Translations under genes and position numbers: made by a program | Origin: Amyelois transitella | Taxonomy: Eukaryota > Arthropoda > Insecta > Lepidoptera > Pyralidae | Assembly: GCF_032362555.1 (NCBI RefSeq) | Contig: NC_083515.1 | Span: forward strand, 4,933,001-4,997,000 | Length of the DNA: 64,000 nt | Direction of reading: 5' to 3' | Part shown: positions 950 through 46,789 of the stretch, piece by piece | How positions within the stretch are numbered: position 1 is the stretch's first letter | How the letters are laid out: each line of letters begins with the position of its first letter | Notes under the pieces: model-generated | Database searches by the model: none | The model's input: the letters and a program-made list of their open reading frames with translations, nothing else | What the model was told of the DNA's origin: nothing

Positions 950-3900
950 ATGACAACGTCGCCCACCAGGACCAAGCAAAAATTATCATTACGAAAACGT
1001 CTATTTGTGAAGAAGTCTCCAAAAGTTGGTTGCTATGTTGATACGGACTTGAACGATGAATATAATCAAGCAACTTCTCGTCCGATTTCGCCAGCGGATC
1101 CCTTTTTAGCTCAAAGCGCCCATAATTCTGATACCAAATCAGATCTAGCAGATAGCCATCAAAACTCCTGCACAGAACTACACAGTAACAACTCTAGCCA
1201 CAAGTCTAATCACTCTCACATCGAAAGTGATAGCAATCAAAAATGCTGTCGTACGTTTTTTAGGCGGTCCCGTCCTCGAAGTCTCGTTGAAGGCCAACCT
1301 CCCAAAGAAGAATCACAATCAAAACCATGTAGTCCAATAAATAATTCAAATAATAGTTTAAGTGAGTCTAAAAGTGAAGAAATCCCTAAAGCAACAGTTA
1401 AATTTCCTAAAGGTGATGATAGCAAGAAGTGTTTCGAGCATTCTGGTTCCTTTGAAGGTATCAAGACAAAAAATAAATTATTTGTGAAGAGACTATCTGC
1501 CGACCATTTAATAACAAATGAATCTAAGCCATTTTGTCGTTCTTCTTCACCTGAGAGTGATAGAAGTAGTTCTTTAGACAGGAAACGAAGGTATGATAAT
1601 TATATTTTTTTAACCTTATAGCAGCTCATACACTTTTTTGTTATAATTGCTGTTTTTTTTTATAATGTACCCTATGTTTTAAAACAGCAAAGGCAGGAAT
1701 AGTACTTGATTTTGAATTAATTGCTTTGGTATGTCCATTAACCTTTTGAAGCTTGGTAATAAAGATAGAATTATAAATCAAGTATGAGATAAGCTTTAGT
1801 TTGGGGATTACTTTATATTTCTTAATCTGTAAATATCTCTCATAGGAGCAAGTCAACTATCACAAGGTCAACATCCCGAGCGGGCAGTACTGACAGCCTA
1901 GCGAGAAACTCACTACTTGCTGCACAAGTCCTTCGTCTCATACCCACACAAGAGGCTAGAGAAAGGTAAATTATTTTATTTTATTTTAAAAATTAACATA
2001 CATTTTTTAAAATAATTATTAAAACAACTTGCTTGGTCAAATAAATACTAATTGGTTAAGAAGTTTGTTATACTTTTATTTACTACTACTTTAGTAAAAA
2101 ATATTTTCAAACCAAAGGAATGAATATTTTCAAAGGAAAGATTCAAATTATGATTCAGCTTTGACTCAGTGGAATGTACAGCATTTGCATCTACGGAAAG
2201 TCACGTAACTAAAGTCCTCCAACTTAATAGGCAATAATAAGAGCCAATTAACCATTATTCAATTAAAAGGAATGTTTAACACTTATGTAATGACTAGAGT
2301 TCGCCCAAGGCTCTGGCCTCGTAATGAAAAACTTCATCCATGAGAATTTTGTTTTATATATTATTTGTCAGGAACTACTTATATGGCAGACTGGCGTCCC
2401 ACTCATTGCTGGGCGCTGCTGAGTTGGAGCATGTCTTCCCGGACAGGGAAGTCAAGATATTTGTTGGCACATGGAATATGAATGGACAGGCCCCACCCAA
2501 GTAAGTAAATCATTGCGAAATATAATGTACTAAGGGCCCGCTACGGATTCGCATCTGGTACATACAAATATGTGCCGTGACATAATAACATGTGCCATGT
2601 GGTTCCCGGCACCAAATAGAAAAAAGAATAGGACCACTCCATCACTCTCCCATGGATGTTGTAAAAGTTCCGATCCGACCGATCATGAAAATAATTTTAC
2701 AATAATTTTCATGATCGGTTCAATATTTCGAACATTTGCCTTTACAAACAAACAAGCAAAGTGACAAACTTTACCTCTTTAACATAACAGATTATTCTTG
2801 TGTTATTTACGAGTATCGTAGTAGACAGGTTTTTAAAGGAAGTGATTCCTGTCTGACCTCCGCAATCTTTGCAAGGGGTCTTGACACATATTAACATAGT
2901 ATTCTTGCGTTCGTATCACAAGTTTTGAACTTACTTCGAGGCAAGGTAATTGGTCCCGTATATATTTATTTATTACTAGATATTTATTCGATCACGGAAA
3001 ATGTCGCACTATATAAATGGGCACATTTATATAGTGCGACATTTGAACTTACTTCGAGGCAAGGTAATTGGTCCCGTATATATTTATTTATTACTAGATA
3101 TTTATTCGATCACGGAAAATGTCGCACTATATAAATGTGCCCATTCTACTAGTCGCTTTTTACGACATCCACGAGAACAACAAGAAGTACTTTTCGTAAG
3201 TGCCGAGTACTACACTCATATTATGTATCATTTCTACAGGGAATTGGCAGACTTCATATTCCCCAACCAAGTGAAACATGTACCTGATATATTTGCAATC
3301 GGCACACAAGAGTCCTACTCAGAGAGAACAGAATGGGAGATCACCATCCAGGAAGTGTTGGGACCATCACATATTTTATTACATTCTCACTATTTAGGTA
3401 AGTTGTTTACAAAAGTTACCTACTACAAACTTATAAGTACCTATCACGTCTTTATCCCAGACGCATTGTATGTACTAATAGCGACCCGCCCCGGCTTCGC
3501 ACGGGTGCAAAATTCGGAAAAAATTATACATAAAAACCTTCCTCTTGAATCACTCTATCTGTTACAAAAAACCGCATCAAAATCCGGTGCGTAATTTTAA
3601 AGATTTAAGCATACAGACAAATAGACTAAAATAGCGACTTTGTTTTATACTATGTAGTGATACATGACAGTGTATTGAGTAATTCATGAATGAAATGTTA
3701 TATATTTTATTTGATTTTTTATTTGATAGTCAGAAGACTAAAAGACCGTAGCTTAATAAAACTTGAAATTCAAAAAGTCACTATCCTGCCCCAATAATGA
3801 TAAAAAATTACACAATTTATGACATTTAATCAATAATTTATTTCCAGGAACACTCCATCTCACAGTCTTCGTACGCCGAGACCTAATCTGGTACTGTTCG

Positions 3901-20863: not shown

Positions 20864-23800
20864 TTACTCGGCAGTCGCCAGCAAATGTTTGTGAACGCAT
20901 TCCTCCTTGTTTATAAGATGCGTCGTCTTGTTCACCAGTTGCATAAGCGTGTTCAAGTTGTTGGACCATTCGTTGAGGCGGTCCGAGGCGTCCATGTTGA
21001 GGCTGAAATAAAAAAGTAATGTTCTTATCTATGACATAGCAGATAAAATACAAGAGAGCCGCATATTCTACTCTAGTCTCGTCTTGCAGCAGCCTGAAAA
21101 CTATCTGGGGAACCAATGACTGGCCGCCTCCGCCGGAGTAGAAAGAGCAGCTGAATGATATTGGATTTAAAATTGAGTATTTCAAAGTCTAGACAAAGTA
21201 GAGAGAGAAATATCACAGAGGGAATTCCAGGCCCCCAAGCAGGGTGGTAGGCAGGGTGCAACCGGGAACATGCAAATATGAGATAGGAAAAAAAAGTATA
21301 GGTAAGAAACAAAAACATACATACATATGATCACGTCTATATCCCTAGCGGGGTAGACAGAGCCACCAGTCCTGAAAAGACTTATAGGCCACGCTCAGCT
21401 GTTTGGCTTTGTAATAGAATTGAGATTCAAATAGTGACAGGTTGCTAGCCCATCGCCTAAAAGAGGAATCCCAAGTTTATAAGCCTATCCCTTAGTCGCC
21501 TTTTACGACATCCGTCAGAAACAAAAACATTAAATTAATATGAGTTACCTGAAGTGCACGACTCCCGCTGGACGGTCGATCTTCGCTCGTACCACACTAC
21601 TGACGACCAATTGGCTGAGGGCATCCTCTGTTTCTGTCTCGCTCAAACCAAGCAGTTCGCTCATGCGTTTGACAGTGATGCGAGTGTAATACATCGACAT
21701 AATGCGGATATTCTGCAAAATAAATACTTCTTAATTTAGTAAACACATAAATTATTTCTTTGTGTAATGTATAGCATGGCAAGGCCCTTTTTTAGGTCTA
21801 CTACAAAGCCATAATGATAGTTAGTGCCACTATATGTATAATTTGAAGTAATTTAAAAATACCAGCAACTTAAGTTGATATTTAATAACAGTATTTGGAA
21901 TTGGTGCTGGAGAAGATAAGTTGGATGGAAAAATCACAAACGAAGAAGAGATGTTCAGAATAAAAGAAATAAGAAGATATAGGCCATTTAGTCCGACATG
22001 ACGATTTGTTCAATGACAATAGTAAAATTTGTGTTTTTGTAGCAAATTTTAAAACTACTCAACCGATTTCAAAATATAGCATAAAGTAGCATTTAATTCT
22101 GATATTGAACTATTTTAAGGCCTATTTTGGATAGGGACATCATCGACGAAAGCAAATGCTAAGCCTAAATATAATTCCTAAATATTAATGTAATTACTTT
22201 ATTAATTAATGATTTTTACTTACATGTTCTACAACTCTATTTTTCAAGTCATTCCAGCGTTCCTGACCTTTCTCATCAGAGGCGTCGAAGTATGGAGTGC
22301 TCCGCAGCATCTTCTCATATGTCGAACAAAGGACATTCCATCTTATTATTTCAGGGTTGATGAACAAACCCAAAAGTTGTCTGTAAACAAATGACACATA
22401 AACCTTCATTACAATAAATCACCCAGAACAAAAGTTGAACTAAAATAATGATGTGCATAGGTGGGTGAGTCGCCAGCCGTACAAACATATACATAGAATC
22501 ACGCTTCTTTCCCAGAGGGGTAGGGAGAGACTACATCTTTCCACTTAGATTCCAAAATTTATGTCTATCTCAGATACTTAATTCAAAATTTTCCATGGTA
22601 GGTTGTACATATATTATTTTTTCTCGCTGGATTGTCCCATCAGTACTTACTGTAAGAACTTTTTTAAATTGAATGTCACAAAATCAATAATTATCAGTAG
22701 GTACAGTATAAACCCAACCCAGACACTTGCTTGCATATTAATTGAGAAACAATTAGAAAGCAACTATTGTGACACAGTACCCGCCGATTCGGTTAAGCTG
22801 CATTCAAGCAGGTATTGGCCATTACGTGAAAATAATCCAGCGGGACTAGCACGGCACGCGCGACGTGTTTTTTATCGCGCGATAGACTATCCAGCTCCAT
22901 TTCATGTCATAATTAAAGCGAAACAGCGATATTTAATCACGCTTATTATACTCACTTATACTCGGGCAGTTTCTCCAGTTCCTTATCCTCATTGAGCCTA
23001 TGCGTCAGATCCGCTTGCTCATTGTCGTATGGCGCTAAAATGAGAAACACTACACTCCCCACCAGGGCGTCTGTGCCCGCTAATTCGCCCAACGCGCGGA
23101 AATGGCGGCATACAGACAGGTATTGGCCATTGTGCTGATCCACAGCTATCATCAGACGGTAGAATTTCTCCTTCAGCTCCTGTAAGTACATGTACAATAA
23201 TGAATAAGTAATATATACTATGAATCTATAAATCATGCTTCTAATTTAGTAATTATTATCTTCAATACAACAATAACATAACTAGAGCATGTAAATTGTT
23301 AACAGCCCTAATCAATTTCAAACACAATAAAAGATCCAAATTTAATACCAATATAACTAACTTACCTGCGTGTTATCTTCATCAAAGAATTTAGTATTGA
23401 TCTTCTTAGAAATTATCTGTGTTCGGATGTAGTCTTTGATGGCCAGACAGAGCCTCATCTGTTCCAAAATCAGCTCCACCTTTTCCCTTTTGTCCATTGA
23501 ACCATACGTTTCCACCTGAAGCTCTTGAATGATCTTAGCAGCCTCAGCAATATTCCCTTCATCTTCTCTGATCTTTGCCAAGATATGAGTAAGCCGGGCT
23601 CTCTCAACTTCCACATAGATTTTACCTTCAGTTATTGTCCTCAATGTTTCAATGAGCTTTATTTTGGTTTCTTTGTCAGGTGTTTTGTCAACATAAGTGT
23701 AACATTCTTGCACCATTTTTACCACAGCCTGCTTGAGCTGAGATCTACAAATACAAATATGTATCTTATTTTAAACAGAAACAGCAATTTTCTAAACAGA

Positions 23801-30500: not shown

Positions 30501-33500
30501 AAAATTTGTGTGGTGTTTAGTATTCTAAAATAAATGTTGATGTTGTGAATGTAAGGCCCGTTTAATTAATTATAGCTCTGCCGTCGATAACGGGATTAGC
30601 TGTTCAAAGATAATGTGTAAACTTTACTAACATGAAAATGATTTATTTATTATATTTGAATATCTACCTATATAAATAATATCTATCAACAATACTAATT
30701 ATAGAACTAAAAAGTGGCACATAATCTTGTCAAAACAGAATATCATATAACATTTCTCCGATAACAAGCTTTCAATGTAAACAACATACAATGCATGATA
30801 TGTAAATATGTATACCATTGAGCAGGTTTCCATTTACATTGTCACATAATCCAGTAGCTATAGTGTATAGTTACATACCTATTTGTGTTTTACCAATCCA
30901 TAAATTTTAATATATTTCAATTGATGAAATTAAGGAACAGCGTGATAAGGGAATGTTGTAATGTGAAAGAAAATGTAGTTACAGGAATAGAAAAGTGTAT
31001 GTTAAGATAATTCGGTCATGTGGAGAGGATGAATGAAAGCAGGTTGACTAAGCAGATATACAAGGAGAGTGTGGAGGGAAAGGTCGAAGTGGGAAGACCT
31101 AGACGAACGTATCTTGGTCAAATTAAGCCTTTAGTCGCAGTATATGATATTCGCAAAACATCATAAGAGCAAGACATTATAATCTCAAAATAGCACATTC
31201 TCAAAATATGATATTCTCAAAATATCATAATAGCTAGATATCATATTCGCGAATCATAATGTTCCCAATACATCATATTTGCAAAAAAGCTAATACTCAG
31301 GAAATCATATTCAATCAAATATCATATTCGCATTTCACGATATTTTTGATCCAAAAGTAACATCAGCTACAATAAAACCAAGACTGCGTTTAATTGATTC
31401 TTGTCCTAAAACGTGGTACTGGCTGGCCATTTATTTTCCTTTATTATTTATGACTAATAATGAACTAATAATGAACTACAAATGGAGTCGAAGGATGGCA
31501 TCGCCGAATTAATAGTAAAATTCCTAAAAAGCCAACATTGTATCAATTTATAGCATTAATGAAAAAAGAAGCAAAAATACAAAAAGTAAAACTAGAAAGA
31601 AACAATTTACATTTTGCTGACAAGAAACGAAATAAAAAAACGATAGACAAAAATAAAAAAATTAAAAGTATCGTCAATGATTGTGTACTTAAAACAATAA
31701 GTCTTCCGGTATGTCTAAAACGGTTAAGTGTTTTACAGAAATATTAGTAGTAAATATATTTTGAATATAATTAATAATAATAAGAATATTTTTTATTTTG
31801 TTTTTTGTAATAAGAATAAATAATTTGTTTTGTAATACCTAACAAATAATACTATGTTTCGAAATAATATATCTACCATTTCCAGCACTTCCAGCGGTCA
31901 CCTCCTCCGCTCTTTTTTGTCTAGCTACATAAATTTTTGTCATATATCGTAATATATCAATTACATATGCCTTACTGTACTTAGAATATAATGTTTTGAG
32001 CTTATCATATTTTGCGAGTGTGGTATATTGCGAAAATCATATTTCGTGAATGTGTTTTTACGAGAATCTTATGTCTAGCTATTATGATATTTTGAGAATA
32101 TCATATTTTGAGAATGTGCTATTTTGAGATTATAATGTCTTGCTCTTATGATGTTTTGCGAATATCATATACTGCGACTAAAGGAAATTAAGGACGTCCT
32201 AGTAAAGGGACAGGTCAAAAGTACCCGAAACTGCCGAAGCTTGTATGACGAGAGTTATGAATGTGGATGAAGCGAAGGAAGTATGCAGAGATCGTGGCAA
32301 GTGGAAACAGGTAGTCTCTGCCTACCCCTCCGGGAAAGAGGCGTGATTTTATTTTATGTATGATGAAATTAAAATTATCTGATCATTGTCATGGATTATA
32401 AAATAGCTTTAAAGATCTATTTCGTTGCAAAAACTACTATCAACCATAAATCAAAAGGTCATCAATTTGATCTGTAATGACGATTACCATAAATGGCATG
32501 TTCGGCTGTCATGGCATTCACTCTCTATTTTAGTCGGATTATTCCTTTGATTCAGATTAGTTTTTTCTAAAGTTATATTTTTAAAGGGACACATTGAATC
32601 CATGCGTGGCTGGTTGCTCACTATTTATAAATCCTTTATTATCCCAAACCTTTAAATATGGGAAAGAGATGTTTTTTTTGTTTTGGTGTTAAAAATTTTT
32701 ATTCATTTGTTTTGGTGGTAAAATACTTTTTCTCTCCTGCCAGACTTTAAGCCAAACCGAGGATGATGAGCCCGACACGTGCGTGATAGAAGTGGTGAAC
32801 CTGCCGAATGATCATCCCCCCGAAAAGGTGTCCCGAAGGCTCAAGAGGTTGGCCGACAACTGTGGGGGAAAAGTGCTTAGGGTGACGGCGCCAACTGCCT
32901 TGTTGAAGTTCCCGACGCTCATTCATACTATGAGGTTTGTATTGATAAAAAATAAGACGCAACTTACAACTGAATATAGCTTTTAAGAATTTCGATGTTG
33001 AAATGGTTAAAGCGTCCGAATAAAAAAGTAAGATGCACAGGTTAAAATCCTACCGCGGCGGTGGTGTGTTTGCTAACCAGCACTCTTACGTAGGTATTTC
33101 AAGGTATATATCTATGTAAAAAGATAATGCTTCTAATAACTTGAGTCGAGAAACTCTTGTTTAAATTGTGTTGAATTAAATGTGTTTTGTTATTAAGAAA
33201 ATACATTAGTGGCTTAATAGGCTTAATGATATAATTGAGATTCAAATAGGTACAGGTTGCTAACCCAGCGCCTAAAAAAAAGAATCCCAAATTTGTAAGC
33301 CTATCCCTTAGTCGCCTTTAACGACATTCATGGGAAAGAGATGGAGTGGTCTTATTCTTTTTTGTATTGGTGCCGGGAACCACACGGCACAATAAAAAAC
33401 AGCTGTTTTATATGAATTTCTAAACACATCACGTATCAAAAATAATAAGACACATTTTGTGAATGTTTAATTCAGTTTAAGGTTTAAAAATATTACAGAC

Positions 33501-39500: not shown

Positions 39501-42500
39501 ATTTAAATTTTATCAATTTGCAGACTCATTCCAGCTTTTCATCACCACTTCGGCCGGCAGTGCCGAGTGGCCGATTATGGATTCACCAAGCTTCCAGATT
39601 TACTCGCCGCTCTAAGCAATGCGATTGTTGTAAGTATAATTTTATGTATTTTTTTTAACGAAAATAAAGCCTGCACTGCTGTTAACTGTTACATCCAGAT
39701 TTGGCTATTCAGCATCGGATTTGGCATTGAATTAAATTTTGTTATTTATTTCGGTTTCTAATTATATTGTTTATGTTATTGATGTCATTTTATTAATTTT
39801 AATCGTACGTCTCCTTTATTTATTTCTAAAAAGTAATCCCTTATCGCACATGATTACGATAATTCAAATATCTGTATTCCAAATTTCATCAAAGTCTAGT
39901 AACCAGTCTGTCACCTTTTATACAGTTAGATATGTACAGTTCAATAAATCAATATTCAATAGATATGCTCAATTTAATACAATTTCTAACAAAATCTCGC
40001 CAGGTACTCGGCTCCGGTTCATCCCGTGTAATAACGATATCCGCGGCGGCTCAGGGCCGGCGATGGACGTCCGATCTCGTGAAGCTACTGAAGGCCGCGC
40101 CCAACCGTTCTGTTTCTCCCCGCGATATACCAGAACTGTACCAGGCTACGTTCGGAAGGCCGTTCACCCCAGTCGACTATGGAGTCTGTACTTTAGCGGA
40201 GTTGGTGCAAAGAGTAGCCCCCCAAGCTGTGATAGTAGATGTAGACGGAACGTTGTCGCTGCCTCGTAGGACTCCCACGCCGGAAGAAAGGGGGCGCACT
40301 GTACAGTTTGCTATGGAGGTATGTCTTTTGATTTACTATTAAATTTCAGTGTATTTTTTCAGAAAGACAGACAAGAGTTACTATCGAATTTATAATATTA
40401 GTAGATGTATTTAAATGGATATTTATATTTAAATGATATTAGAGGTCAATAATCGAAACGTGGTAAAAAACTAGCCAGCTTGGTAGACATGTAGCAGATC
40501 CTACATGAGGACCCTTCCCGGCGGGATCATGCACACAAACTATGAACAAATACTTCATTACAAAGAGTTCCATTACTTACAAGCAATATTTCCACAGGCT
40601 GTAGAACTCCTCTGCTACACTCCGAACCTCCGCATGGAATTCTCTCGTTTCGTGCCCGCCTACCACGCCCACTTCGGCCGTCAACTCCGCGTGGCGCACT
40701 ACGGTTGCGTCAAGTTGGTAGAACTGTTCGAGCTGATACCGGAAGCGGTGTCTATATACTCGGAGGCTAGCGGGGAGAGGAGTGTGCGGTTGGCAGTACG
40801 AGCGGCGAGGGCGGTGATGGCGCAGAGGTTGAGGGCGATTACGCCGGTGTCTATGGCCGATTTGCCTCAACAGTACGCAGCTCATTTCGGCGCGCCGCCG
40901 TTGGTGAGTGGATAATTTGTATATTTAAGTTTGTGTTTTTTATAACTTTATGGTTTACTATTTAATTTTTTGACAATAACACAATTGTTTTGTTTTTTAA
41001 ATTTGTTGAAAAAATTAAGTAAGCCACTAAATAAATTTCCCTGTATTAAGTGGTACCGTTAGTTTAGTATTAGTTTTTTTTTGTGTCACACGGTTACGGG
41101 TTCGAATCTCAACCAAATCATAACAAAAAGCACTTACTTACAGGCACGTGGTATTATTCGATGTAACACTTTTCGGGGTCGGGTATCACACTCAACTTTT
41201 CCGTATTGGTCTTAGTCTGGGATGTATATATTTTTAATTTCAGCCGGACGTGCTAGACATGTCGTCTCTGGAAATGCTTGTGTACGCGGCCGGCGGCTGC
41301 ATCGAGGGCGGCGTGGCTCGCGGTGCGGGCTCGGCGCCGCGCTGGGCGTCCGCCGCGCTCGCCGCCTGCGCCGCGCTCAGCGCCGACCGCAGCGTCGCCA
41401 GAGGTATGTGTGGCTCCGTACAGACACGTGACACACAGCTGGGCGTCCGCCGCGCTCGCCGCCTGCGCCGCGCTCAGCGCCGACCGCAGCGTCGCCAGAG
41501 GTATGTGTGGCTCCGTACAGACACGTGACACACAGCTGGGCGTCCGCCGCGCTCGCCGCCTGCGCCGCGCTCAGCGCCGACCGCAGCGTCGCCAGAGGTA
41601 TGTGTGGCTCCGTACAGACACGTGACACACAGCTGGGCGTCCGCCGCGCTCGCCGCCTGCGCCGCGCTCAGCGCCGACCGCAGCGTCGCCAGAGGTATGT
41701 GTGGCTCCGTACAGACACGTGACACACAGCTGGGCGTCCGCCGCGCTCGCCGCCTGCGCCGCGCTCAGCGCCGACCGCAGCGTCGCCAGAGGTATGTGTG
41801 GCTCCGTACAGACACGTGACACACAGCTGGGCGTCCGCCGCGCTCGCCGCCTGCGCCGCGCTCAGCGCCGACCGCAGCGTCGCCAGAGGTATGTGTGGCT
41901 CCGTACAGACACGTGACACACAGCTGGGCGTCCGCCGCGCTCGCCGCCTGCGCCGCGCTCAGCGCCGACCGCAGCGTCGCCAGAGGTATGTGTGGCTCCG
42001 TACAGACACGTGACACACAGCTGGGCGTCCGCCGCGCTCGCCGCCTGCGCCGCGCTCAGCGCCGACCGCAGCGTCGCCAGAGGTATGTGTGGCTCCGTAC
42101 AGACACGTGACACACAGCTGGGCGTCCGCCGCGCTCGCCGCCTGCGCCGCGCTCAGCGCCGACCGCAGCGTCGCCAGAGGTATGTGTGGCTCCGTACAGA
42201 CACGTGACACACAGCTGGGCGTCCGCCGCGCTCGCCGCCTGCGCCGCGCTCAGCGCCGACCGCAGCGTTGCCAGAGGTATGTGTGGCTCCGTACAGACAC
42301 GTGACACACAGCTGGGCGTCCGCCGCGCTCGCCGCCTGCGCCGCGCTCAGCGCCGACCGCAGCGTCGCCAGAGGTATGTGTGGCTCCGTACAGACACGTG
42401 ACACACAGCTGGGCGTCCGCCGCGCTCGCCGCCTGCGCCGCGCTCAGCGCCGACCGCAGCGTCGCCAGAGGTATGTGTGGCTCCGTACAGACACGTGACA

Positions 42501-45500
42501 CACAGCTGGGCGTCCGCCGCGCTCGCCGCCTGCGCCGCGCTCAGCGCCGACCGCAGCGTCGCCATAGGTATGTGTGGCTCCGTACAGACACGTGACACAC
42601 AGCTGGGCGTCCGCCGCGCTCGCCGCCTGCGCCGCGCTCAGCGCCGACCGCAGCGTCGCCAGAGGTATGTGTGGCTCCGTACAGACACGTGACACACAGC
42701 TGGGCGTCCGCCGCGCTCGCCGCCTGCGCCGCGCTCAGCGCCGACCGCAGCGTCGCCAGAGGTATGTGTGGCTCCGTACAGACACGTGACACACAGCTGG
42801 GCGTCCGCCGCGCTCGCCGCCTGCGCCGCGCTCAGCGCCGACCGCAGCGTCGCCAGAGGTATGTGTGGCTCCGTACAGACACGTGACACACAGCTGGGCG
42901 TCCGCCGCGCTCGCCGCCTGCGCCGCGCTCAGCGCCGACCGCAGCGTCGCCAGAGGTATGTGTGGCTCCGTACAGACAAGTGACACACAGCTGGGCGTCC
43001 GCCGCGCTCGCCGCCTGCGCCGCGCTCAGCGCCGACCGCAGCGTCGCCAGAGGTATGTGTGGCTCCGTACAGACACGTGACACACAGCTGGGCGTCCGCC
43101 GCGCTCGCCGCCTGCGCCGCGCTCAGCGCCGACCGCAGCGTCGCCAGAGGTATGTGTGGCTCCGTACAGACACGTGACACACAGCTGGGCCGCCGCTACA
43201 ATCGTGTCTACTTGTTTTATTTAAACCCAAAATATAATGACGAGAAAATATTTTTCTAAAAGGAATTGAAACATTTATGAGAGAATTGGTAAACTTAAAA
43301 GAAAACACTAAACCAACGTTAATCTTCCAGGTTCAACCGAAGAATACTTCACGTCGGCATTCCGCCGGATGCGCTCGGCGGAGCCAGATGTCGGCTGCCT
43401 GGTGGCGTCAGGCGTGGTGGAGGTATGCGACCGACGGATCCGTCTGACGCCCGCCTGGCGGATCGTCTGGCGGTTGGCGCAGGTATTCGCAGAACGAACT
43501 ACGCCGATGCTAGCTAATGAAGTGCTGGCAGAGTATACGAAGAGATTCGAACCTGTTTTCCCTAACTCTGAGTTGGGTGAGTATCTTATTTATTTACTAG
43601 TTTTCGCGACTTCGTTCGCCGTAAAAGTTTGTCGTCCCCTGCCCCCCAGGGCAGTAAAGGGGCAGCGGGGGTTAATATTCGTACTTTGGAATAGCCATGC
43701 TTTTTTTTAATCCCATCCAGCTAAGATATGCGACTCCAAAAACGAGCCTGTTCTTTTGACTCTACAACCAATGCACTTTTGACATATCCTCATCAGGGAT
43801 TGATATACAAAACGCGGTAGTTCTAAAATAAAAGTCGCGTATAACTATCGCAGGTATAAACGGCATAGTGGAGTTCCTCCGGCAATACGTCGAGGTGTTC
43901 TCCGAGACGTGCGGGCAGTGGTCGCTGTGCGCCGGCGTGGCGCTGCCGCGGCCGCGCGACGCGGCGCCCGCGCACGAGGACTACTCCGTGCACGACACGC
44001 CGCCCGGCCAGAAGGTATATCACATATATACATATATATATACAATCACCTCTCTATCCCTTATGGGCAGACAGAGCCAAGTCTCGAAAAGCCCGGAGTA
44101 GAGAACCACGTTCACCTGTATGGCTTGATAATGGAATTGAGATTCAGATAGTGACAGATGGCTAGCCCGCTAAAGCCACAATCGCTATATGTTTTATAGG
44201 TATCTTCAGAAACAAGAAATATCTAGAGCAGAGAACAAGCAACGCGTATCGTTAACATTACGGCATAAGAGGTGCATATAAATGATGTATTGAATGATTG
44301 TACTCAGCATACTTTTGTTTCCTTTGCAGGGATCCCGCGTGTTTGAATCGCCAAAAATAAATATATGGTGCTCCCCTCCAGCCAGTGCCCTGCCGCCGCC
44401 GACTTCATTGCTCACACAAGAGAAGCGTATGTACCATTTATATTTTGTATCTTATTCAATTTATGATTTGATTATTGTATTTTTGGAAAAATTTGAAGAT
44501 TTAGAGGAAATGAGCGATATTGAAGATGGATGGAAGGAATTTAAAGAAAGAATTGTGAAAGTAGCTGTTGAAGTGTGTGGTGTAAGTAGAAGAAGGAAAG
44601 GAAAAAATCACAAAAATGCGTGGATGAGTAAAGATGTGCAAGAACTTGTGCGATTAAAGAAGAAAGCATGGCTGGATTTGTTAGCAGCAAAAGCTAACTT
44701 AAGAATGCAAGAGGTTATAGATGAAGATGTGAATGAAGCACGTAAGGAATATAAGAAAATGAAAGATTTGGTTAAGAAAGCTGTGATTAGAAAGAAAGAA
44801 GAGTATAAAGAGGATTTTGATAAAAGGCTATCAGAAGACTTTCAGTCAAATCTGAAAGTATTCTGGAAATCCGTAAGGTCAGCCCGAGGAAATACTATAA
44901 CCAGAGAGCTGACTAGGATCAGATGCCAGGATGGTAGCGTTGTAAAAGGAGAAGAATGTGTACTAAAGATATGGAAGGACTATTTTGAAAGTTTATTTGA
45001 AAAAAAGGAAGGAAATAAGAAAGATTTCTGCTATAGCGAAGAAAAAGAGAATGAGATGGAAGGCGAAATTGAAATGTTCGAAATTGTGGAAGCACTTAAG
45101 AGTATGAAAGCGGGAAAGGCTGCTGGGTGTGATAGAGTGTCGGTCGAGATGCTTAAAGCAGGAAAAGGCGTAGTAGCTAGTCAGTTGTACTGCCTTTTCA
45201 ATTTGTGTTGGAGAAGCGGCCGAGTACCAAAAGATTGGTGTAAGGCTGTTATCGTGCCACTTTACAAAGGAAAAGGGTCACAGCTGGACTGCAAAAATTA
45301 TCGTGGTATAAGCCTGCTTAGCGTCGTCGGCAAATTGTATGCTAAGGTATTGATTAATAGAGTCAGGAATGAAACTGATGACAAAATATGGGATGCTCAA
45401 GCGGGATTTCGAAAGGGAATGGGATGTACTGATCAGGTCTTTTCCTTGCGGTGCATAGCCGAAAAGTTTTTGGCCAAGAGTCAAAAAGTCTATTGCACAT

Positions 45501-46789
45501 TCGTAGATCTGGAAAAGGCCTATGACAGAGTTGAGAGGAATGAATTGTGGTCAGCACTTTCTATGCATGGGGTGAGCAGTCTCTTAATACGAGCACTGAA
45601 ATCCTTATATGAGGATTCGAGTGCTTGTGTCAGGATAAACGGAGCGCACACTGAGTGGTTTAAGATTGAGAAAGGCGTTAGGCAAGGATGTGTTGCGTCA
45701 CCGTGGCTGTTCAACCTATTTATGGATAGCTGTTTGACAGATTTGAAAGAGTCTAAAAGTGGATTAAGGATGAATGAGTTACTCGTCAAATGTCTGCTCT
45801 ATGCCGACGATCAGGTTATACTGGCGTCATCAGCGGAGGAGTTACAGGAGATGGTAAACTGTATGCATGAAGCTTTAAAAGAGAAAGGAATGAAAGTGAA
45901 CGTAAGTAAAACTAAAACACTGGTTTTTGAAATGGAGAAAGAAATGACAGCATGTAATATTTTGATTGGAGGAGAAAAAGTGGAGCAAGTGAAAGAGTTT
46001 GTATATCTAGGATCAAAGTTTACATCAGATGGCAAGTATGATAGTGATATTGAAAGGAGAGTGAACGCGGGGAACATGGTGAATGGAGCTTTGCATGCCT
46101 TTATGAGCAGTCAGAAACTATCCAAAAAGGCTCGACTGGCTGTGCACAGGGGCGTGTTGGTCCCGACATTAATGTATGGGAGTGAAAGTTGGGTATGGCA
46201 AAAGAAGCATGAAAGCAGAATAAATGCAGTGGAAATGAGAGCGTTAAGGAGTATGATGGGTGTGAAATTGAGTGACAGGATAAGGAACAGCGTGATAAGG
46301 GAATGTTGTGATGTGAAAGAAGATGTAGTTACAGGAATAGAAAAGGGTATGTTAAGATGGTTCGGTCATGTGGAGAGGATGAATGAAAGCAGGTTGACTA
46401 AGCAGATATACAAGGAGAGTGTGGAGGGAAAGGTCGGAGTGGGAAGACCTAGACGAACGTATCTTGATCAAATTAAGGACGTCCTGGTAAAGGGTCAGGT
46501 CAAAAGTACCCGAAACCGCCGAGCTTGTATGAAGAGAGTTATGAATGTGGACGAAGCGAAAGAAGTATGCAGAGATCGTGGCAAGTGGAAAGAGGTAGTC
46601 TCTGCCTACCCCTCCGGGAAAGAGGCGTGATTTTATGTATGTATGTATGTATGTATTTTTGGAAAATAATCGTTCTCTCTACAACCCAGCTGTTGGCTTG
46701 AAATCTAAAATTTTCTGTGCATTTGATAAAATAACTTTGATATTTTCGCAGGTCGAACTCGATTGGCGGCACATTTCGACGCGTCGTAA
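27581..46789 (+). CDS. MARF1: MARF1-like RNA-binding and mRNA-decay factor
   Basis: Relative of meiosis regulator and mRNA stability factor 1, which binds mRNAs and promotes their loss in oocytes. Coding exons: 27581-27764, 28166-28323, 28981-29124, 29413-29573, 29955-30072, 32744-32934, 35206-35362, 35588-35729, 36290-36483, 36986-37569, 37935-38098, 38466-38601, 39524-39629, 40004-40318, 40598-40903, 41244-41403, 43331-43576, 43854-44014, 44330-44426, 46752-46789. They sum to 3762 nt, 1253 aa, with every phase compatible. Domains: NYN nuclease-like (about 104-255; IFWDIENCQ, NAADEKL, LLISGDINFAADL keep acidic residues), RRM (about 258-325), Ser-rich linker, second RRM (about 484-546), then six or seven LOTUS/OST-HTH repeats (554 to about 1195; for example FVPAYHAHFGRQLRVAHYGC). 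Two introns hold LINEs, and exon 16 runs into a minisatellite. The start ATG at 27581 is the first in frame in this exon; Met at 27632 is an alternative. Confidence 0.92.
27915..28012 (-). mobile_element. Diverged TATG-tailed retroposon fragment
   Basis: TATCCCTACGGTGTAGACAA.. AAAAGACTGAAAATGCAGCT..TTTGGCTG is a decayed antisense copy of the short retroposon. It lies in intron 1 of MARF1. Confidence 0.5.
31128..32184. mobile_element. MULE-like DNA transposon, deletion derivative
   Basis: 1057 bp with identical 111-bp terminal inverted repeats (31128-31238 and 32074-32184, starting CCTTTAGTCGCAGTATATGA), flanked by the 8-bp duplication AAATTAAG (31120-31127 and 32185-32192). The plus-strand frame around 31474-31747 contains TNGVEGWHRRINS followed by PTLYQFIALMKKE. 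I recognise this as the C-terminal end of a Mutator-like transposase (VEGWHR and HP-type Phe-Ile motif). In-frame stops lie just upstream and the catalytic part is missing. It is inserted in the LINE copy at 30934-32360. Confidence 0.85.
31474..31747 (+). pseudogene. Transposase C-terminal remnant (MULE type)
   Basis: The frame has TAA, TAA and TGA codons just before ACTACAAATGGAG. It then reads T-T-N-G-V-E-G-W-H-R and continues to the stop at 31745-31747, ending in a Lys-rich tail. The DDE catalytic core and DNA-binding domain are absent, so it cannot encode an active enzyme. Confidence 0.65.
33212..33392 (-). mobile_element. TATG-tailed retroposon, tail missing
   Basis: Antisense copy: TTAATGATATAATTGAGATT, CAGCGCCTAAAAAA, CTTAGTCGCCTTTAACGACA, GGGAAAGAGATGGAGTGGTC, ending in TGCCGGGAACCACACGGCAC, the intact head. 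It lies in intron 6 of MARF1. Confidence 0.85.
35031..35093. repeat. 27-bp inverted repeat
   Basis: Arms 35031-35057 and 35067-35093 (AAGCTGCTT.AAGTTAACTA..) differ at one position and are separated by 9 nt. It lies in intron 6 of MARF1, about 110 bp before exon 7. Confidence 0.95.
35765..35910 (-). mobile_element. TATG-tailed retroposon, 5'-truncated
   Basis: Antisense copy bounded by the 9-bp direct repeat ATATTAAAC (35756-35764 and 35911-35919). It lies in intron 8 of MARF1, some 25 bp past the exon 8 donor. Confidence 0.85.
39108..39215 (-). mobile_element. LINE 3' fragment
   Basis: GGCTTACCCGGAGATGTAGG, CAGAGACTAC, CTTTCCCACTTGCCGCAATC and TTCATCCACATTCATAA are the reverse complement of the LINE C-terminal end (GAATGTGGACGAAG.. 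to CTACCCCTCCGGG). It lies in intron 12 of MARF1. Confidence 0.75.
41342..43184. repeat. 97-bp minisatellite, 19 units, spanning an exon-intron border
   Basis: Units start at 41342 and every 97 bp after. Each has 62 nt identical to the end of MARF1 exon 16 (CTGGGCGTCCGCCGCGCTCG to GTCGCCAGAG), the donor GTATGT, and 35 nt of intron ending CACACAG. A partial unit (CTGGGC) follows at 43185-43190. I see only three substitutions in the array: C to T at 42269, G to T at 42565 and C to A at 42979. The unit is one base longer than 32 codons, so open frames crossing three units appear on both strands but are not genes. Confidence 0.98.
43604..43640 (-). repeat. Fragment of a common lepidopteran repeat
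   Basis: CTAGTTTTCGCGACTTCGTTCGCCG is the end of the dispersed repeat also seen at 16140-16320 and 61007-61040. It lies in intron 17 of MARF1. Confidence 0.45.
44018..44172 (-). mobile_element. Diverged TATG-tailed retroposon
   Basis: Antisense variant: TATATACAATCACCTCTCTA, TATGGGCAGACAGAGCCAAG, CACGTTCACCTGTATGGCTT, ATTGAGATTCAGATAGTGAC, GGCTAGCCCG. It starts almost at the donor of MARF1 exon 18 (exon ends 44014). Confidence 0.7.
44476..46666 (+). mobile_element. LINE (non-LTR retrotransposon), 5'-truncated, with target duplication
   Basis: The element proper is 44491-46651, bounded by a TGTATTTTTGGAAAA direct repeat (44476-44490 and 46652-46666), and ends in a short (TATG)n tail. It encodes reverse transcriptase and the C-terminal region, but no endonuclease domain remains, as is usual after incomplete reverse transcription. 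It lies in the last MARF1 intron in the same direction as the gene. Fragments of the family occur at 16712, 22478, 30934, 39108, 55036, 59948, 62605 and 63040. Confidence 0.93.
44491..46630 (+). CDS. LINE reverse transcriptase, C-terminal portion of the ORF
   Basis: About 713 aa uninterrupted, missing the N-terminal endonuclease. It copies the element's RNA at the target site in the nucleus. Seen in order: a Lys/Glu-rich linker; SMKAGKAAGCDRVSVEML; KNYRGISLLSVVGKLYAKVL; AGFRKGMGCTDQVFSL; FVDLEKAYDRV with the first catalytic Asp; GVRQGCVASPWLFNLFMD; LLYADDQVILASS with the catalytic Asp pair; then a long C-terminal part with LMYGSESWVW, RWFGHVERM and VGVGRPRR. No frameshift or stop was found, which suggests a recent insertion. 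The layout resembles RTE-like LINEs, but the clade is uncertain. The true element start codon is lost; the open frame continues upstream through MARF1 exon 19 to an ATG at 44294. Confidence 0.88.

Follow-up and report, generated by a model that had tools for sequence, protein, structure and literature searches.

The window, by which we mean the whole stretch of 64,000 nucleotides that was analysed, contains a 97-bp minisatellite of 19 head-to-tail copies plus 7 bp (GCTGGGC) at 41341-43190, placed across an exon-intron boundary of the gene MARF1 (plus strand, as are all features of this gene described below). We consider it probable that the array began as a young tandem duplication over this boundary, seeded by microhomology, and that it acts as added intron which is mostly removed from the first donor and may sometimes remain in transcripts that carry premature stops.

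The array and its host gene

Tandem Repeats Finder reported the array with a period of 97, 19.1 copies, 99% match, 0% indels and a score of 3679, while the next best of its 16 rows for the 64-kb window scored 430. This agrees with the description of a minisatellite, whose units are near-identical, arranged head to tail and roughly 10-100 bp long. Each unit is made up of 62 nt from the end of a MARF1 coding exon followed by 35 nt of intron. In a unit-by-unit comparison 16 of the 19 units, unit 1 included, were identical to unit 1 and each of the other three carried one change, namely 42269 C>T (unit 10), 42565 G>T (unit 13) and 42979 C>A (unit 17), which gives three single-copy changes across the 1,843 bp of the array. 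The original prediction had described this composition and three changes in 1.8 kb, and both analyses confirm it. Its coordinates, 41342-43184, located the array correctly and fell short at the ends: the period reaches 1 bp further to the left and 6 bp further to the right, and it is this extension that exposes the 7-bp microhomology GCTGGGC.

No change is shared among the units, which fits a recent spread or homogenisation. Taking the three changes in 1,843 bp, an assumed mutation rate of 2.9e-9 and no turnover, the age of the array would be about 0.56 million generations (95% interval 0.12-1.6 million), a rough figure only. The unit is GC-rich (72%, and 82% in its exonic part), the 2-kb blocks of the window outside 40-44 kb having 27 to 40%. 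Near-perfect units are also what would be seen if one or a few units had been expanded through misassembly. Such an artefact, which we regard as very unlikely, is opposed by the three changes private to units 10, 13 and 17, by the lack of indels and by the tendency of short-read assembly to collapse, rather than expand, arrays of this kind.

The host gene had been named as MARF1 in the original prediction, and Pfam matches bear this out. Three of the ten frames scanned, all open, gave scores above the cut-offs: RRM_MARF1 (30.4 bits, cut-off 27), MARF1_LOTUS (31, cut-off 27) and OST-HTH (32.1, cut-off 23.8). Near the array a second OST-HTH match (23.6, just under 23.8) and a NYN match (15.8, cut-off 24.2) stayed below the cut-offs. 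MARF1 is needed for egg production in flies and mice.

The exon numbers used here (14-19) follow the numbering of the original prediction and are not a count from the start of the gene. Exon 14 very probably ends at 40318, at the donor GAG|GTATGT (40319-40324), mainly on the basis of the consensus sites and of the single open frame in which it joins exon 15; this donor is letter for letter the same as that of the array. Exon 15 (40598-40903) carries, within a surrounding open frame, the OST-HTH/LOTUS domain that scored 32.1 bits. Exon 16 (41244-41403, 160 nt) begins after the acceptor AATTTCAG and ends at donor 1; the exonic part of unit 1 makes up the final 62 nt of this exon, and its open frame continues into exon 17 (43331-43576, 246 nt), which has the acceptor ATCTTCCAG, an open frame and the donor GTGAGT. 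Exon 18 (43854-44014) and exon 19 (starting at 44330) are also open, and exons 14-19 join as a single open frame.

On the protein of the joined exons 14-19, OST-HTH reached 51.8 bits for two stretches together, which scanned apart gave 23.6 and 32.1; the sum was not raised by joining, and the best stretch includes no more than 3 residues on the exon 14 side of the join with exon 15. A joined protein that spans part of exon 15 through exon 18 matched no Pfam family. Since none crosses the exon 16/17 join, only the reading frame supports donor 1. A search of solved structures returned no credible match (best E 0.14 among the 8 listed).

Nineteen donors and the reading frame

The motifs GGTATGT and CACACAG are both present in 19 of the 19 units, and AGAGGTATGT in 18, with ATAGGTATGT in its place in unit 13. 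The donors thus read GAG|GTATGT, or TAG|GTATGT in unit 13, and all 18 downstream donors keep GTATGT. Intron 16 (41404-43330) would measure 1927 nt from donor 1 (41404-41409) and 181 nt from donor 19 (43150-43155), the last one; the shortness of the intron left by this last donor had not been noticed in the original prediction.

When all 19 donor choices were translated, only donor 1, which splices after 41403, entered exon 17 in an open frame. Each donor step adds 97 nt and shifts the frame. From donor 2 translation ends at a stop inside exon 17, whereas donors 3-19, as well as the retained intron, run into the same TGA in unit 2 (41526-41528). If the 160-nt exon 16 were skipped, exon 17 would be read in its frame 0, where a stop lies. 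As judged from the sequence, normal full-length MARF1 would require donor 1, or a route that gives an identical mRNA. The original prediction had claimed 19 intact donors, a first donor (41403/41404) that preserves the frame into exon 17, a frame shift of 97 nt per step and a TGA closing the frame reached by steps of three units. All of this held when the frames were translated, and the last point can be sharpened, as donor 2 also fails and donors 3 to 19 share one and the same stop.

Apart from the three single changes, the 19 donors share the 62 nt upstream and the 35 nt downstream of them. In such a near-identical context differences in usage should reflect position, and position would decide the choice between donors that are nearly equal in sequence. 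We hypothesize that the spliceosome mostly pairs the acceptor of exon 16 with donor 1, which lies closest to it, across an exon of 160 nt, so that 1,927 nt would be removed and normal MARF1 made. The wrong products (from donors 2-19, intron retention, or the inclusion of one or two of the possible mini-exons considered below) would carry early stops and presumably be degraded by nonsense-mediated decay, which is suggested in PMC2809761 as clearing the products of new introns in Drosophila. An open frame persists upstream and downstream of the array, which leads us to infer sufficient use of donor 1.

A consideration against donor 1 comes from the lengths. An exon ending at donor 1 has 160 nt and one ending at donor 19 has 1,906 nt, while the corresponding introns have 1,927 and 181 nt. 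Exon definition and intron definition are commented on in general terms in PMC8614042. Pairing across the intron would favour donor 19, the worst for the protein, given that the other introns checked have 277-340 nt. The array is a natural experiment on whether a donor is chosen by its nearness to the acceptor of its own exon or to the next acceptor; only the first donor makes protein, so that the choice carries a price.

With 18 of 18 downstream donors intact, selection against decoys is not apparent, for which a young age is an equally good explanation; harmlessness also fits. A rival reading makes use of the same donors: as decoys they would divert splicing, longer arrays would lead to more decay of MARF1 RNA, and array length would set the ovarian dose of MARF1. 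This agrees with the presence of 18 extra intact donors of which none is productive, with a last donor whose intron, at 181 nt, would be of favourable length, and with the essential role of MARF1 in oocyte maturation of flies (described in a passage of PMC6168497). Nevertheless no feature points to selection for length and a young neutral array would look identical, and we regard this damping role as unlikely. Under the preferred reading, that of added intron removed mostly from donor 1, the effect of the array is probably neutral or mildly costly, and its length would be expected to vary among individuals.

A special RNA structure hiding some of the donors was considered and rejected, since folding was no stronger than in dinucleotide shuffles (z of +0.25, +0.68, +0.47 and +0.56 for four stretches, 200 shuffles each). 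Two joined units folded at -86.3, compared with a mean of -91.4 (SD 7.1) for shuffled units in tandem, and donors 1, 2 and 3 were equally accessible (mean unpaired 0.379, 0.379 and 0.382). A repetitive protein encoded by the array was also rejected: the unit length of 97 cannot be divided by 3, and all frames on both strands are closed at least every 291 nt within the array, the change in unit 13 adding one extra stop in one frame.

Each unit closes with the acceptor-like CACACAG, the first at 41432-41438, and the original prediction had proposed about 19 potential mini-exons from these sites. The sites exist, 19 of them alongside 19 donors, and together they could generate exons of 62 nt, three of which keep the frame and would add 62 residues. 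Among the mini-exon numbers from 0 to 7 that were tried, 0, 3 and 6 stayed open, while 1, 2, 4, 5 and 7 gave a stop. The tract before CACACAG has 9 pyrimidines in 20 nt, equal to the weakest of five nearby acceptors (9-15), but it has only 2 T against 5-12 in these. Moreover, an intron of 35 nt is below the usual minimum for working insect introns, so only skips of at least 132 nt could work. The claim of mini-exons is thus weakened, and we consider their production most unlikely.

Another route by way of AG|GT had not been noticed in the original prediction. The AGAG|GT of each unit could double as an acceptor, which is possible and not likely; 11 pyrimidines and 1 T are found in the 20 nt before it. 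A splice from one GT to a later AG of this kind removes a multiple of 97 nt and rebuilds both junction and donor, and is therefore invisible in the finished mRNA. It is conceivable that the array erases itself in this manner, AGAG|GTATGT serving as donor and acceptor in silent 97-nt steps, and that late donors still used at a residual level send RNA into decay in proportion to copy number, array length acting as a dial on a regulator of RNA in the germline. We give this idea very little probability.

The units also carry CACGTG, at a spacing of 97 bp, in every unit of 41342-43184 except unit 17 (CAAGTG), and the array holds 18 of the 26 CACGTG sites of the window. These 18 E-boxes might be read as an intronic enhancer. 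Some motif, though, comes along with any 97-bp unit, and this transcriptional role appears extremely improbable.

Origin of the array and known systems

The microhomology GCTGGGC, which was not noticed in the original prediction, is a 7-bp direct repeat bounding the duplication, with its left, exonic copy at 41341-41347 and its right, intronic copy at 43184-43190. The array holds 20 copies of it, at the exonic start (41341), at the intronic end (from 43184) and at every unit border between. Slippage or end joining is commonly seeded by direct repeats of this sort. The gene before duplication would have had two copies of GCTGGGC starting 97 bp apart, one exonic and one intronic, between which a slip or the repair of a break may have duplicated the exon-intron boundary of MARF1. 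The duplicate would then have been expanded to 19 units through unequal exchange or slippage. The coding unit 1 equals the array consensus, indicating that the copies derive from the present exon.

By these steps the intron would have grown from about 181 to 1,927 nt, the array acting as added intron. Four other introns that were checked have 279, 340, 277 and 315 nt, which makes the 181 nt counted from donor 19 plausible as the old intron length. The duplicated segment carries AG|GT, as in reported intron gains, and AGGTATGT is found 19 times in the array. On the evidence of the frames it seems that an old intron was lengthened and none was added. The array would then be a step in intron growth, in which an exon-intron boundary was amplified and the coding copy stayed intact.

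Tandem copies of a segment bearing AGGT are described as supplying splice sites in passages of PMC3443670 and PMC4974935, and the latter includes the RdRp gene of potato, where a tandem duplication across an exon-intron boundary supplies them. The duplication described here likewise crosses such a boundary and bears AGGT. It differs from the AGGT-duplication gains, as portrayed in those passages, in that an existing intron seems to have been lengthened and that there are 19 near-identical copies. In fission yeast SPOG_01682 and SOCG_00815 (as described in part of PMC3629103) the gained introns are 24-nt tandem repeats with a proto-splice site, and they resemble our case in being tandem-repeat intron sequence with a splice-site motif in the units. 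The yeast units are, however, 24 nt long, a multiple of 3, with AGGC as printed, whereas the present ones are 97 nt long and comprise a donor and intron. For SPOG_01682 the same source mentions an EST that removes a longer segment and states that the in vivo intron needs further study.

Like ordinary minisatellites (VNTRs), the array has a GC-rich unit of minisatellite size, near-perfect copies and an expected variation in length; unlike them, it has the host gene's working 5' splice site inside its repeat unit. Epstein-Barr virus internal repeat 1 has units of kilobase size and true exons joined in frame, and it is similar to the MARF1 array in that each unit has exonic sequence and splice sites, whereas the unit of the MARF1 array shifts the frame and has a poor acceptor. 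That the viral region consists of repeat units is stated in a passage of PMC5834210. Minisatellites, tandem duplications over splice sites and donor competition are all known, and within the narrow look taken (word searches in one open-access library) no report was noticed of a minisatellite by which a working donor is multiplied and one coding copy retained.

Other features of the window

A stop-to-stop frame at 44294-46630 runs from exon 19 of MARF1 into a reverse transcriptase (RVT_1, E 2.3e-41), which is probably a non-LTR element adjoining exon 19 on the same strand. In intron 15, within 41085-41130, the sequence GGGTTCGAATC at 41098 is similar to a tRNA B-box motif and points to a fragment of a SINE upstream of exon 16. 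SINE-like motifs of a kind known from Lepidoptera are present in the window, in keeping with a moth. ARAGORN made no tRNA calls in the window, and no Rfam family reached its gathering score there. A 33-base stretch of the unit had no exact match in viral and prokaryote contig collections, and a search of viral contigs for MARF1 protein gave 8 pattern matches of which none was confirmed; both results are uninformative for moths.

Elsewhere in the window, a near-perfect tandem duplication of 118 bp (1.9 copies, 98%) was found at 2924-3145, and a minus-strand exon at 23357-23770 encodes part of the proteasome subunit PSMD12 (Pfam PSMD12-CSN4_N, E 1.2e-59). Degenerate AT-rich repeats of 16, 32 and 64 bp, of the ATATCATATTCTCAAA type, form two blocks at 31142-32177.
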